Assembly (NCBI GenBank): GCA_023666885.1
Contig: JAMPBB010000002.1
Coordinates: 58,144-110,858, forward strand
Length of the DNA: 52,715 nucleotides
Origin: Muribaculaceae bacterium
GTDB lineage: Bacteria > Bacteroidota > Bacteroidia > Bacteroidales > Muribaculaceae
Reading direction: 5' to 3'
Position 1 is the stretch's first letter. Every line of letters starts with the position of its first letter. The notes under the pieces were generated by a model, which searched no databases, had not been told where the DNA came from, and saw only the letters and a program-made list of their open reading frames with translations. A program made the position numbers and the translations under genes. Below are positions 38,780-51,915 of the stretch, piece by piece.

Positions 38780-38810
38780 CTTGATATTACGGAATTTTTC
38801 TTTATTTTTG
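38780..38810 (+). promoter_or_regulatory. Promoter of the cobalamin-riboswitch transcript
   Basis: -33 CTTG (38780-38783) and -7 TATTTTTG (38803-38810), spacer 19 bases. Transcription should start about 38817, just before the riboswitch. Confidence 0.65.
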
Positions 38811-38821
38811 CGCTGAAAATC

Positions 38822-38990
38822 CTAAGGTGTCCCTCAGTGGATTAAAAGGGAATCGGGTGCGAACCCCGAACAGTCCCGCTGCCGTAATTTCATGCCCGAT
38901 TTTCAGGCGCTCAGTCACTGGTATATTCCGGGAAGGCAAGCTTGAAAATCGTTGAATAAGTCGGAATACCTGCCTTATGGATACGTTTCA
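38822..38990 (+). promoter_or_regulatory. Cobalamin riboswitch
   Basis: The conserved core is present: agggaatcgggtgcgaaccc, then aacagtcccgctgccgtaa, a B12-box-type cagtcactgg and the closing tcggaatacctgcc. Adenosyl- or other cobalamins bound to this class normally repress the gene downstream. About 140 bases separate it from the ATG at 39132; that stretch holds small inverted repeats (such as gtgttgtaaacac) and is presumably the expression platform. The next gene is the large propeller protein, not a btuB receptor. Confidence 0.93.
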
Positions 38991-39131
38991 GCCTGCGAGG
39001 ACAAGTGCCGAAAACAGTTACATACAGACGGGAAAATACACGACATACCATGTCATTTCTTCCTGGCTGTGTTGTAAACACGTCATATGGATTTGCAGGT
39101 TTAAGACAGACTTAACCAATCCATAATAGAC

Positions 39132-42198: not shown

Positions 42199-42208
42199 CC
42201 GCTGACAC

Positions 42209-42302
42209 GACAAAGGGGTGCCGCGCTTACTAAACATTGCGGGCTGAGATATACCCTTCGAACCTGATACGGTTAGCACCGGCGCAGGGATTTGTTGGAA
42301 AC
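42209..42302 (+). promoter_or_regulatory. TPP riboswitch (THI element)
   Basis: Hallmark segments occur in order: aaaggggtgcc, gcgggctgagatatacccttc, gaacctgatacggttagc and accggcgcagggat. Thiamine diphosphate binding represses thi genes in this class. About 80 bases follow before the thiD ATG at 42381, containing gttttaaaac and other short repeats that could form the expression platform. Confidence 0.96.
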
Positions 42303-42380
42303 ATGTCTTAAACATCCGGAGTCGTGACGCTGCCATTTTAACCGGCCGCGTGTTTTAAAACATAAAAAACGTATCCGGAC

Positions 42381-48264: not shown

Positions 48265-49382
48265 TGATGACTTCAGGCTCCAAGCCCCGATATGCGCTGC
48301 TTGACGGGCTGCGCGGTGTGGCCGCACTTATGGTGATATGGTACCACGTGTTTGAGGCATTTGCCACAAGCCCGGTGGACCAGAATTTCAATCACGGCTA
48401 TCTGGCCGTTGACTTTTTCTTTGTATTGTCAGGATTCGTACTTGGTTATGCCTACGATGACCGCTGGCAAAAAGGACTGACACGCGGCGGCTTCATGCTG
48501 CGGCGTATCATACGGCTGCACCCCATGGTAGTGGCCGGTGTGCTGATGGGGGTAGCGGCCTTCATAATCCAAGGCTGCGAGAAGTGGGACGGCACCGCCG
48601 TATCAGGCACCGCTGTGGCACTCTCTTTGCTTTTGGGCCTGTTCATGCTTCCCTCCCTGCCCGGCACATTGCCGGAGGTGAGGGGCAACGGCGAGATGTT
48701 TCCGCTCAACGGCCCGAGCTGGTCGCTCTTTTTTGAATACATAGGCAGCATAGCCTATGCGTTGTTCCTGCACCGCCTGTCAAGGAAAGCACTTCGCATA
48801 TATGTGGCCATATCAGCTATAGCTCTTATACTGGCTGCCGTACTCAATATGTCAGGCGCATATCACATAGGAATGGGGTGGACACTGGCCGACTACGGAT
48901 TTTTCGGCGGACTGTTCCGGCTGTCGTTCTCGTTCAGCGTCGGGCTACTATTGTCGCGCGAGTTCAAGCCCGTGCGCATCAGAGGCGCCTTCTGGATATG
49001 CTCCATTGCCATGATATGCATATTTTCCGTGCCGTATATAGGAAGTGACATATCCGTATTTAACGGTATATATGACAGTGTATGCACCATATTGATATTC
49101 CCGGCTATAGTTTACTTGGGCGCATCGGGCTGTACTACAGACCGACTCTCCACCGGCATATGCGAATTTTTCGGCGCCATATCCTATCCGGTGTACATCA
49201 TACAGTACCCCATGATGTACCTGTTCTATTCCTGGATATGGAAAAACGGCTACACTTTCGGTGAAGTTTGGTACGTACCGGTGATGATATTCTTAGGCGC
49301 AATAGTGCTGGCCTGGCTCCTGCTGCGATACTATGACCAGCCACTCCGCTCCTACCTCACCCGCAAACTCATCAAGCGCTAA
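48264..49382 (+). CDS. OafA-like membrane acyltransferase (acyltransferase 3 family)
   Basis: A 372-residue inner-membrane protein with about ten hydrophobic helices. Family motifs include LDGLRGVAALMVIWYHVFE with the catalytic-type His, DFFFVLSGFVLGY and LRRIIRLHP. Such proteins O-acylate surface sugars. Its ATG overlaps the thiH stop, so it is read as the last gene of the thiamine operon, although no role in thiamine synthesis is apparent. It may simply share the transcript. Confidence 0.87.
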   Translation: MMTSGSKPRYALLDGLRGVAALMVIWYHVFEAFATSPVDQNFNHGYLAVDFFFVLSGFVLGYAYDDRWQKGLTRGGFMLRRIIRLHPMVVAGVLMGVAAFIIQGCEKWDGTAVSGTAVALSLLLGLFMLPSLPGTLPEVRGNGEMFPLNGPSWSLFFEYIGSIAYALFLHRLSRKALRIYVAISAIALILAAVLNMSGAYHIGMGWTLADYGFFGGLFRLSFSFSVGLLLSREFKPVRIRGAFWICSIAMICIFSVPYIGSDISVFNGIYDSVCTILIFPAIVYLGASGCTTDRLSTGICEFFGAISYPVYIIQYPMMYLFYSWIWKNGYTFGEVWYVPVMIFLGAIVLAWLLLRYYDQPLRSYLTRKLIKR

Positions 49383-49510
49383 CCTCGCATAATCCCCTTA
49401 AAATAATCTTTGTGCAGATGAATCAAAAGAAATGAGCCGGAATATATACGTATTGTATAAAATGGAATAATACACCGTGACTAAAAGTTTGTAATATTCT
49501 GATATTGTTG

Positions 49511-49544
49511 ATGCAAATTTGCGGAATGTTCTGTAAATTTGCAT
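49511..49544. promoter_or_regulatory. Inverted-repeat operator over the cassette promoter
   Basis: A perfect 10-bp inverted repeat, atgcaaattt (49511-49520) and aaatttgcat (49535-49544), separated by 14 bases. The right arm covers the -7 box TAAATTTG (49534-49541). A second, overlapping palindrome gcaaatttgc lies at 49513-49522. This is the layout expected for a repressor site. Confidence 0.55.
49534..49541 (+). promoter_or_regulatory. -7 promoter box of the small accessory cassette
   Basis: TAAATTTG fits TAnnTTTG. Transcription would start near 49548, about 240 bases before the first start codon at 49786. No -33 TTTG is found at the usual distance. Confidence 0.5.
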
Positions 49545-49788
49545 TGCCTTTTCGTAAGGCAACGTTTGAAATAGAGAAAAGTGCCTCAAATTCGTTGAAA
49601 TCGCCAATTTGAACTAATTATACACGAGGTACGGTGACAGCTCATATTACGTGGGCTGCCTATCCGTGCGTGTATAAGGGTGTTTGGCGATGCCCAGCGA
49701 ATTGCAGGGATGGCAGCCCACTTTTATCAATCAGCAACAATGTTAACTCCTCCTATCGGATGCCTGTGGAGGAATAGGATAAAAAATG
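49544..49788 (+). ncRNA. Structured leader RNA with pseudoknot-type stems (unassigned)
   Basis: This 240-base untranslated stretch has several pairings. A 5' hairpin ttgcctt-ttcgt-aaggcaa (49544-49562) sits at the predicted transcription start. Stem A pairs ttatacacg (49618-49626) with cgtgtataa (49669-49677), plus acgg (49631-49634) with ccgt (49664-49667). Stem B pairs gtgggctgcc (49651-49660) with ggcagcccac (49712-49721), followed by TTTT. The 5' arm of B lies in the loop of A, so they form a pseudoknot or exclude each other. A third helix pairs cctcc (49749-49753) with the Shine-Dalgarno ggagg (49768-49772). I do not recognise an RNA family. Confidence 0.55.
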
Positions 49789-50094
49789 GCAAATAAAGAG
49801 ATTAACCCTACGAAAACCTTTGCTATCTGTACGGGTGTAGCATTTGCAATTAGCGTAATTGCCCTGTTATTTATGGGAGCTCAATCGGGAAAAGTAAACC
49901 ACTTATTTACCACTGATGGTGCATTAGTCTTGTTTGATATAGCATGGATGTGTGCCCTATTTGGTCTGTTTATGGGTTTCATCGCATGGTGTGGAAAACG
50001 AAATCAGAAGATGAAAGAAAAAGATGACATAAATGATTTGATGCGTCAGTATCTTGAAAAGAAACTACGGGAGGAGGAAGAAAATGGGCAATAA
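49786..50094 (+). CDS. Small two-helix membrane protein of an accessory cassette
   Basis: A 102-residue protein of unknown function. Two hydrophobic helices (about 12-32 and 45-68, the second in LVLFDIAWMCALFGLFMGFI) are followed by a charged, probably coiled tail (KEKDDINDLMRQYLEKKLREE). It could be a holin-like or membrane-associated phage protein, but nothing proves this. It has a strong Shine-Dalgarno sequence (ggagg at 49768), unlike most genes here, and its end overlaps the next start by 11 bases. Base composition is more AT-rich than in the thiamine operon. Confidence 0.6.
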   Translation: MANKEINPTKTFAICTGVAFAISVIALLFMGAQSGKVNHLFTTDGALVLFDIAWMCALFGLFMGFIAWCGKRNQKMKEKDDINDLMRQYLEKKLREEEENGQ

Positions 50095-50459
50095 TCCAAT
50101 CTGCACAAGCGTGGAACAATCACATGCACTCATAAACAATGGGTTGACAGCAGATACAGCCGACTTATACTATGTCATCCGAAGGAATTGTGAGCCACGA
50201 CTTGCATTGCTTGTCAATGAACCACCCAAAGGGTTACTCAATTCCATACCTGCGTGGTCATTATCAGCACTGATTAATCTAGTTGCCTGAATTTGTAAGC
50301 TTCAAAGGCATTGAATATTGCCTTATGATGCTATCTTACAGGGTAGTATATTAGAATTCAGAAGTTGAGAATCTTTTTGAATGCACCGAAGTAAATCTGT
50401 TAGATGCTGTTGTCAATGCCTTAATTTGGTTGGCTGACAACAGAGAAATCAATTATTGA
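50084..50459 (+). pseudogene. Decayed phage-type small protein gene (ICTSxEQS family)
   Basis: The gene starts at ATG 50084 behind the strong Shine-Dalgarno ggaggagg (50070-50077) and encodes GNNPICTSVEQSHALI, then IPAWSLSALINLV, before stopping at 50288. In the next frame, from about 50286, the protein continues as PEFVSFKGIEYC, then ENLFECTEVNLLDAVVNAL, to a stop at 50457, with one in-frame TAG at 50352. From memory, intact proteins in Bacteroidales prophages and mobile elements have the same order: CTSxEQS, PAWSLxALL, and a C-terminal DAxVNxxxWL segment. A frameshift plus a nonsense codon therefore explains the break. The short product of 68 residues might still be made. Confidence 0.6.
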
Positions 50460-50477
50460 TGGTTCTTCCTTTCCCTG

Positions 50478-50528
50478 ATTCAACCTTGCTCTATATTTTT
50501 CGACATTAAAATGTAGGGCAGGTTGAAT
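50478..50528. repeat. Inverted repeat after the decayed gene
   Basis: attcaacct (50478-50486) and aggttgaat (50520-50528), a 9-bp stem with a 33-base AT-rich loop. It could be a terminator or a remnant of an element end. The rest of 50460-50605 shows nothing recognisable. Confidence 0.4.
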
Positions 50529-50605
50529 ATCAAAGAAAAGTCAAAACCCTTCTTGGTATAATATTAGTCAGTCTTATGATTTGGGAGCAATGGAGATCTT
50601 TCAAT

Positions 50606-51883
50606 TCAATCCTTCAAACTTCCGATTGGTACTACATAGACTCCATCTGAAGGCCTTTTATATGCATATTGACCCACTCCCGTAAGAACCATCAAAAATG
50701 ATGGGGGATTCATTTTATCAGTATCAATTTTTTCAGCCAGTTTTACAAGATTTGACGCACCTTCATTTATAAGTTTTTCCCCTCCAAGTTTCACCTCAAT
50801 TAAGCCATATCGCCCATTTTTCAAATGCACTACAGCATCACATTCAAGTCCATTTTTATCTCTATAGTGATAAACAGTACCACCTATCGCGTCAGCATAA
50901 ACTCTTAAGTCCCTTATGCACAATGTTTCAAACATAAGCCCAAAAGTATTAAGATCATTCATTAAATCATCAGGACCGAGCCCCAATGCAGCAGTAGCTA
51001 TGGATGGGTCTGAAAAATACCTTGTATCAGATGTTCTCACCGTAGTCCTGCTCCTTAGATTAGGATTCCACGCTATAGAGTCTTCTATAACGAATATGCT
51101 TTTTAAGGCATTTATATAAGAATAGACCGTGCTTTCGGACGGCGCTATTCCATTTACCGTCAGATCGGAAACAAAAGTTGAGATGGTGGCCTGCGCACCT
51201 TGATTCCTCGCATAACTTCTCATCAACCTTCTTGCCAATTCCTGATCGCGTTGAACCCCATCGGCTCTTGAGATGTCGCTTCTAACGACGGCTTCAAAAT
51301 ATTCTTCCGCCTGCATAAGTGCAGCCTTGGAATTCGATTTCAAAGATGCTTTTGGCCAACCTCCCCTACAAGTAATGAACGCCAATCGTTCTATATCAAT
51401 GTGACTGCTTCCATCAATATTATCAACATTCTTGAAAAGAGATCTCATACTTACTTCACCGGTAGAATCACCAGACTCCCAAAGGCTCATAGTGCGAAGC
51501 TTAAGCCATGACATTCTGCCAGTTCCTGAATGAAAAATTTCAGCAGGATCTGCAGGTACGGCTGAACCTGTTAATATAAATTGTCCGTCCTCGCCTCTCT
51601 TATCAACTTCATTTCTGACGGCATCCCAAAACTGAGGAGCAATCTGCCATTCATCTATTAATCGCGGAGTGGCGCCCTTCAACAATCTACCGATATTGGT
51701 TTGAGCCAATATAATATTTTGCTCGCGTGTATCCGGATCGGCCATGAACAAGACACTTTTTGCATGTTGGCATGCGAGTGTGGTCTTTCCACAATACTTG
51801 GCGCCCTCAACAAGAACGGCACCTACGGCGGCAAGTTTATCATCTAAAATACTATCTGCTATACGAGGTTTGTAATCGGCCAT
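50606..51883 (-). CDS. AAA ATPase with DUF4143 domain
   Basis: A 425-residue protein. The N-terminal ATPase domain has Walker A GAKYCGKTT (27-35) and a Walker B-like region in TPRLIDEWQ. The C-terminal DUF4143 part contains ECDAVVHLKNGRYGLIEVKLG, a PD-(D/E)xK-type nuclease core. Such proteins are common, often multi-copy, in Bacteroidales and their role is unknown. ATG 51883 is chosen because an upstream ATG at 51910 lies in the -7 box. No partner gene lies beside it on the same strand. Confidence 0.88.
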   Translation of the reverse strand: MADYKPRIADSILDDKLAAVGAVLVEGAKYCGKTTLACQHAKSVLFMADPDTREQNIILAQTNIGRLLKGATPRLIDEWQIAPQFWDAVRNEVDKRGEDGQFILTGSAVPADPAEIFHSGTGRMSWLKLRTMSLWESGDSTGEVSMRSLFKNVDNIDGSSHIDIERLAFITCRGGWPKASLKSNSKAALMQAEEYFEAVVRSDISRADGVQRDQELARRLMRSYARNQGAQATISTFVSDLTVNGIAPSESTVYSYINALKSIFVIEDSIAWNPNLRSRTTVRTSDTRYFSDPSIATAALGLGPDDLMNDLNTFGLMFETLCIRDLRVYADAIGGTVYHYRDKNGLECDAVVHLKNGRYGLIEVKLGGEKLINEGASNLVKLAEKIDTDKMNPPSFLMVLTGVGQYAYKRPSDGVYVVPIGSLKD

Positions 51884-51907
51884 ACTTCTTGATATTTTTT
51901 GAGAGCA

Positions 51908-51915
51908 CAAATGTA
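51908..51915 (-). promoter_or_regulatory. -7 promoter box for the DUF4143 ATPase
   Basis: TACATTTG on the minus strand, 24 bases before the ATG at 51883. Confidence 0.55.

Follow-up and report, generated by a model that had tools for sequence, protein, structure and literature searches.

A candidate riboswitch-like leader RNA with two mutually exclusive conserved folds in Bacteroidota and some of their phages

The window, which is the whole stretch of 52,715 nucleotides analysed from a Muribaculaceae bacterium, contains a structured leader upstream of a gene for a small membrane protein (Table 1). A sequence-only reading of this leader had described a 7-bp hairpin at a predicted transcription start, a 9-bp stem A and a 10-bp stem B whose 5' arm falls within the stem A loop, and each of these is found in the sequence. 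The hairpin is present at 49544-49562 and the predicted start agrees with a TAnnTTTG box at 49534-49541, stem A pairs TTATACACG (49618-49626) with CGTGTATAA (49669-49677), and stem B, the 5' arm of which lies inside the stem A loop, pairs GTGGGCTGCC (49651-49660) with GGCAGCCCAC (49712-49721), directly followed by TTTT (49722-49725). A near-perfect inverted repeat (ATGCAAATTTGCGGAA / TTCTGTAAATTTGCAT) at 49511-49544, noticed via a chance Rfam match, spans the promoter -7 box and may be an operator site. A 68-codon ORF (50084-50290) without a Pfam match at E<=1 overlaps the 3' end of the 102-codon gene and is possibly the remnant of a longer gene, and a protein carrying AAA_14 and DUF4143 domains is encoded at 50606-51910 on the minus strand. 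The window also holds a cobalamin (RF00174) and a TPP (RF00059) riboswitch at 38808-38991 and 42204-42308, beyond which lie ORFs that we take to resemble thi genes.

The leader (49544-49788) has a free fold of -78.9 kcal/mol (z -3.66), which none of 200 dinucleotide shuffles equalled, and its 150-nt core (49576-49725) has a z of -4.93 (200 shuffles), in agreement with the earlier claim that pairings of this kind are unlikely by chance. The 3' part of the core (49654-49725) reaches z -3.83, with 1 of 200 shuffles as good, and the 5' part folded alone (49576-49653) is no better than shuffles (z -0.64). Stem A forms the central part of an extended rod made up of helices P0, P1, P2, P3 and P4, and because the 5' arm of stem B also pairs inside this rod, in P4, stem B and P4 are mutually exclusive.

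Table 1. Features of the leader and its downstream gene, in window coordinates.
Feature	Position	Strand	Basis
Bacteroidota-type promoter -7 box TAnnTTTG (TAAATTTG)	49534..49541	+	sequence; same box in window-like leaders
7-bp 5' hairpin, presumed transcript start	49544..49562	+	fold z -2.5
Conserved RNA core, 150 nt, rod or two-hairpin fold	49576..49725	+	phage spacer identity, model matches, z -4.93
P0 5' strand, partner 49719-49725	49577..49583	+	95.6% of cells paired; both-side changes in 5/7 pairs (26 sequences)
H1 5' strand GUGCCUC, partner 49626-49632 in the alternative fold	49581..49587	+	95.6% of cells paired; both-side changes in 4/7 pairs
P1 5' strand, partner 49696-49704	49588..49596	+	both-side changes in 8/9 pairs; 75.8% of cells paired, several rows one column misaligned
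P2 5' strand AUCGCCAA, most conserved segment, partner 49684-49691	49600..49607	+	100% of cells paired, 26 sequences
P3 5' strand (P3a 49618-49625, P3b 49629-49634)	49618..49634	+	both-side changes in P3a 8/8, P3b 2/6 pairs
H1 3' strand, shared with P3 5' strand	49626..49632	+	overlap of the two folds
P4 apical hairpin CAGCUCA/UGGGCUG	49638..49658	+	93.8% and 89.6% of cells paired (two runs); both-side changes in 3/7 pairs
Stem B 5' strand GUGGGCUGCC, competitor of P4	49651..49660	+	95.8% of cells paired; both-side changes in 6/10 pairs
P3 3' strand	49664..49677	+	rod covariation
Local hairpin GGGUG[UUUGGCGA]UGCCC; loop holds most of the P2 3' strand 49684-49691	49678..49695	+	99.2% of cells paired; both-side changes in 3/5 pairs
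P1 3' strand	49696..49704	+	rod covariation; complement before start codon in 11/26 window-like relatives, not in the window
Stem B 3' strand GGCAGCCCAC plus TTTT; 49719-49725 doubles as P0 3' strand	49712..49725	+	both covariation analyses
Hairpin just 5' of the start codon, UCCUCC/GGAGGA	49748..49773	+	single-sequence fold only, z -1.2
Downstream gene, 102-residue small membrane protein	49786..50094	+	ORF; no Pfam family above cut-off

A BLAST search of 50,697 phage records with a 1301-base query around the leader gave a single match, of 150 nt at 90.1% identity (E 1e-46), in an intergenic spacer of Bacteroides phage BS-TP1, the boundaries of which coincide with those of the core (GAAAAGUGCC to CCCACUUUU). 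The gene downstream of the phage copy encodes a 119-residue hydrophobic protein with no significant similarity to the 102-residue protein of the window, which itself has no relatives among viral contigs or phage records. A leader bound to the family of that protein was rejected on these grounds, and the small membrane-protein gene reported downstream is indeed present but represents one case among a wide set of downstream genes. BLAST of the DNA against 296 genomes of the phylum returned the window's own copy and two short weak matches, two exact patterns had zero matches in viral contigs, and plasmid records had none.

Of 393 genomes from the order to which the window belongs, 54 (its own among them) had matches at E<=0.001 to a covariance model built from three sequences, and 33 of these matches, on inspection, had a common anatomy in which AATCGCCAA and GGTGTTTGGCGATACC are kept in most. 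A motif pattern recovered at least 119 stretches from GTDB genomes, with titles among the matches listed that include Prevotellaceae, Bacteroidaceae, Muribaculaceae, Alistipes, Flavobacterium, Winogradskyella and Tenacibaculum, and 11 viral stretches; earlier pattern scans had added two viral contigs. Besides leaders that resemble the window's, the relatives include a larger branch, and a second model made from 47 sequences of that branch had matches in 158 of the 393 genomes of the order and, across the phylum, in 49 of 395, again with the own genome counted, although model E-values are rough and the large genome searches were run with stricter filters. Matches labelled Ignavibacteria, Cloacimonadota and Lentisphaerae are contigs of metagenome-assembled genomes and are possibly mis-binned. 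Twelve genomes (the window's own and eleven picked for having matches) carry 2 to 28 copies each, the 28-copy genome being split over about 700 contigs. The window's own genome has two, the second of which (L180, G000:C5:5503-5671) precedes a 193-residue protein with a hydrophobic, signal-peptide-like N-terminus.

'Window-like' refers below to two slightly different sets of 26 leaders, one defined by a motif rule (used for promoter distances, mini-ORF and U-run counts) and one hand-picked (used for covariation, the <=75-nt promoter and the AUG-proximal copy); the motif rule assigns a few doubtful sequences (such as L018, L079, L081 and L110) to the other branch than the eye would. The hand-picked set was aligned as A7 and the 47 larger-branch sequences as A8. 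A GTDB pattern that fixes P2 and GGUG..ACC was the source of 11 of the 26 rows in A7 and 38 of the 47 in A8, so part of the conservation of those letters follows from how the rows were gathered; the remaining rows came from rod-containing models or other patterns. With that restriction, six of the eight P2 pairs are invariant in the 26 sequences, and one pair is GC in 24, AU in one and UA in one.

Two folds were compared across these alignments, namely the rod P0-P1-P2-P3-P4 and an alternative consisting of a 5' hairpin H1 and a 3' hairpin in which stem B encloses the GGUG...UACC hairpin. In A7 the rod is paired in 91.5% of 1146 cells, with both-side changes at 27 of 45 pairs, and pairing falls to 32-48% when the partners are slid; the alternative fold is paired in 96.5% of 572 cells, with both-side changes at 13 of 22 pairs. 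The corresponding values in A8 are 89.0% and 24 of 37 pairs for the rod and 89.6% and 9 of 15 pairs for the alternative fold, and for each fold in each alignment none of 500 shuffles reached the real value on any of five measures. In A8 the alternative fold exceeds the slid controls in pairing (slid, at most 56%) and covariation score but not clearly in both-side changes (9 pairs against up to 7, 15 cells against up to 16). The outermost two pairs of P0 change from AU to GC in 8 and 7 of the 26 window-like sequences.

A partner-swap test that needs no alignment compared the pairing of each 5' segment with the 3' segment of its own leader and with those of other leaders; over 126 sequences the results were z -33.7 for P1, -30.1 for P3, -14.5 for H1, -15.0 for stem B and -8.7 for P0, against controls of +1.4 (that of H1), -0.3 and 0.0. 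A further helix, between the 3' strand of stem B and sequence past the U-run, has a swap z of -7.8 in the same set. The set was reached by leaving out L023 and matches with too little flank and by removing 12 near duplicates from 157 sequences, 4 with short flanks from 145 and 15 without a U-run from 141, and relatedness is only partly corrected for in the swap and shuffle tests. For all six helices the gain of real over swapped partners is greater on the given strand than on its complement, as expected from G-U pairs in RNA. Absolute energy is also better on the given strand for P1, P3, H1 and stem B, but not for P0 (-6.22 vs -6.23) or the further helix (-7.58 vs -8.04). Of the 26 window-like leaders, 20 have sufficient sequence beyond the box for a test of the 5' hairpin at the presumed transcript start, and in these it scored -6.3 with real and -3.9 with swapped partners (lowest swap -4.7).

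The covariation check thus finds that homologous leaders keep the pairings, with compensatory changes for both alternatives in A7, in A8 and in the swap test, and this comparison of sequences shows two mutually exclusive folds that are both conserved. The sequence-only reading had left open a pseudoknot or a switch. Because H1 and stem B draw on strands that the rod needs as well, the comparison favours a switch between two folds, and a single static pseudoknot was rejected, since relatives support competing folds and the linkers seem not long enough for every helix to form at the same time. When each fold is forced, the window gives -59.4 kcal/mol for the rod and -56.3 for the two hairpins. 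The means are -52.7 and -52.8 kcal/mol in the 26 window-like sequences (free minimum -62.7) and -42.8 and -46.6 in the 47 of the larger branch (free minimum -60.4), the forced folds averaging about 10-18 kcal/mol above the free minimum, and the two folds lie within 5 kcal/mol of each other in only 10 of 26 and 13 of 47 cases.

The position of the element relative to genes is polarised. Of the 148 distinct pattern matches listed, 114 have a same-strand ORF as their next neighbour within 400 nt, 15 an opposite-strand one and 19 none; the nearest upstream ORF within 600 nt is on the plus strand in 89, on the minus strand in 53 and absent in 6. Upstream regions of 220 nt from 141 leaders contain 123 TAnnTTTG boxes, where single-base shuffles predict 20, and the position of the box peaks at 91-110 nt before AATCGCC in the larger branch and at 61-70 nt in window-like leaders. 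By raw count, the box is found no more than 75 nt upstream of the aligned element in all 26 hand-picked window-like leaders. Leaders of the larger branch also show a candidate GACATAT motif between promoter and element and, about 40-80 nt before AATCGCC, a recurrent TGCCTATG with a start-stop mini-ORF.

A hydrophobic N-terminus was assigned, by a crude hydropathy rule applied to mechanical ORF calls, to 74 of 104 first downstream ORFs and to 188 of 768 other ORFs of the same loci (odds ratio 7.6), a control weakened by the spurious ORFs among the 768. Pfam and PADLOC scans covered 92 of the 114 downstream proteins, and among the first 25 Pfam families listed there was none in common, the hits including BspA-type LRR (9), OMP beta-barrel (3), HTH_26 (3), type I restriction N-terminus (2) and DNA methylase (2); PADLOC found type III methyltransferase models in two and UzuA in one. 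Six copies (L085, L163, L055, L060, L186 and L199) stand before genes that resemble restriction-modification parts by eye. The 92 scanned proteins share no function pointing to a ligand, and the element appears to sit mostly before genes for exported or accessory proteins. A leader position combined with competing folds that involve expression signals, as expected of a riboswitch, was found at the level of sequence comparison.

These expression signals differ between the branches. In 11 of the 26 window-like leaders the P1-P2 5' strand occurs a second time (for example as ACTCGTTGAAATCGCC), 1-5 nt upstream of the ATG, against 1 of 26 in a same-size upstream window, and the P1 part of this second copy covaries with P1' (swap z -5.4, controls 0.9 and -0.1), from which it follows that P1'-P2' is able to pair with the rod 5' strand or to cover the start region. 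This copy is present in viral contigs L157 and L159 and absent from the window, phage BS-TP1 and viral contigs L006, L007 and L158. Leaders of the other branch show it at a background rate (4 of 115 vs 3 of 115; swap z -2.2), and one of those four leaders, L081, looks window-like. Two other candidates for a switch part in window-like leaders were rejected, as swapping had no significant effect on the downstream hairpin (-9.5 vs -9.2 kcal/mol, n=26) or on the stem B 3' strand with the sequence that follows it (-11.2 vs -10.7 kcal/mol, n=26).

A run of at least four Us is found in 126 of 141 leaders, against 47 of 141 in a same-size upstream window. In a count by branch, with one rule for both, a U-run follows stem B in 113 of 119 larger-branch leaders and 17 of 26 window-like ones, so that window-like leaders often lack a strong U-run. 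The larger branch combines this U-run with a stem B exclusive with P4, which might suit a transcription attenuator; the window has stem B and only U4. The suggestion that stem B and TTTT could terminate transcription holds in that both are present, but the signal is weak in the window, and in window-like relatives the TTTT is the covarying 3' strand of P0, which already accounts for the terminal Us and so argues against simple termination in these leaders. In the larger branch the further helix pairs the stem B 3' strand with a GGACU-like sequence about 20 nt past the U-run (50 of 113 at an energy of -6 or better), and simple attenuation does not explain it because the polymerase would already be past the U-run.

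The rod shape and promoter box, together with a P0 that joins both ends and a 3'-terminal U-run in 126 of 141, would also suit a free-standing small RNA, a 6S-type rod ending at the U-run that merely happens to be encoded before other genes. This explanation is unlikely, since the same-strand bias toward the downstream ORF (114 to 15), the bias of downstream genes toward hydrophobic N-termini, the P1-P2 copy before the AUG in 11 of 26 leaders and the larger-branch helix that extends past the U-run all tie the element to an mRNA; it also matches no Rfam family.

A start-stop mini-ORF is a further feature of the larger branch, whose 116 leaders have 80 ATGs at -80 to -61; 67 of these reach an in-frame stop within three codons, compared with 16 of 80 and 25 of 80 in the other frames. 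This enrichment would fit a translation sensor, in which a ribosome at the mini-ORF decides between the rod and the two hairpins, but such a sensor is hard to reconcile with a mini-ORF that is not enriched in the window's own branch, has an ATG start in only 9 of 38 leaders of a second set and is located upstream of the switching strands; we give it little credence as the explanation of the element, and as a general feature the mini-ORF was rejected in favour of one confined to the larger branch. Less probable still is the idea that the element is not an RNA but part of a mobile element acting as folded DNA, either integron attC-like or a transposon end, which would account for the many dispersed copies, the unrelated downstream genes and the presence in phages but not for swap gains greater on the given strand with G-U cells common, a promoter at a preferred position, a polarity stronger to the downstream than to the upstream ORF (114:15 vs 89:53), or the mini-ORF and AUG-proximal copy.

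The segment is therefore best read as a cis-acting leader RNA, probably of a new orphan riboswitch-like or attenuator class present in Bacteroidota and some phages, the fold of which would control expression of the downstream gene. The P2 region (AAAUCGCCAA with GGUGUUUGGCGAUACC), which is nearly invariant, may be the sensing core, and a ligand, protein or RNA could stabilise it in one fold and so shift the balance between rod and two hairpins. Downstream expression would then be set by the fold that forms, through an expression platform that appears to differ between branches. In some window-like leaders, P1'-P2' paired with the rod 5' strand would leave the start codon free, and paired with the copy 1-5 nt before the AUG would block it. 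In the larger branch, in which many leaders carry the upstream start-stop mini-ORF, stem B followed by the U-run suggests transcription termination. The output of the window's own copy is the least certain step, as the core is present and the AUG-proximal copy absent, and could be either stem B with U4 or the start-proximal hairpin; with neither a strong U-run nor an AUG-proximal copy, the window copy may be a variant or partly decayed.

More tentatively, these leaders could form one sensing class with at least two output modules (a start codon blocked by a duplicated core strand, and a terminator with a start-stop mini-ORF) through which a single common signal would act on genes for exported, surface and phage membrane proteins and for restriction-modification. 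The presence of the element in a Bacteroides phage suggests that phages may use the same signal as host leaders. If the reading as a leader RNA is correct, the element would be a widespread regulatory RNA of Bacteroidota absent from Rfam 15, found in 158 of the 393 genomes sampled from a single order. Exported and accessory genes would then make up its regulon, the search for its ligand or factor would be directly testable, and the element would offer a natural switch part for gut bacteria.

The earlier statement that no known riboswitch class is recognised agrees with the Rfam scans. Against the 4227 families of Rfam 15 at gathering scores, the whole window matched only the cobalamin and TPP riboswitches, both elsewhere; at E<=5, the region 49380-50700 gave three matches, all of them outside the core and not close to the gathering score; and at E<=0.5, the loci of 20 relatives gave two, neither over the element. 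With no Rfam 15 family matching the leader or the 20 relatives' loci, membership of a known Rfam family was rejected. Rfam holds a T-box model, which, like the 6S RNA covariance models, had no match in the window region or at the 20 relatives' loci.

Motif strings searched in the openly licensed PMC literature returned, among the matches listed, only unrelated subjects, and no described family of this kind was found in that literature, including the available portions of PMC2864571 and PMC8040213. The long rod with a closing helix recalls the shape of 6S RNA and 6S-flavo (RF01685, named in a table of PMC2864571), from which the element differs in having no Rfam match, in being tied to a downstream gene and in occurring in several copies per genome. 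The available portion of PMC8040213 describes the candidates HMP_4078 (109 bp) and HMP2_4205 (132 bp) as palindromic and mostly from Bacteroidetes, with HMP_4078 near phage-related domains; the likeness to the element is one of description, and it is possible that the element was listed there earlier without a name.

The TPP and cobalamin riboswitches of the same window (RF00059 and RF00174) are likewise cis-regulatory leaders, but reach Rfam gathering scores, which the element does not. Riboswitch-type families combine one core with different outputs. The element differs from known riboswitch families in that it matches none of them, has no metabolic theme among the scanned downstream proteins and has single strands with three possible partners. 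With orphan riboswitch candidates and variable-platform riboswitches, as generally known, it shares a 5' leader position, a conserved core and competing folds, together with a proposed terminator-like or start-codon-blocking output and several copies per genome.
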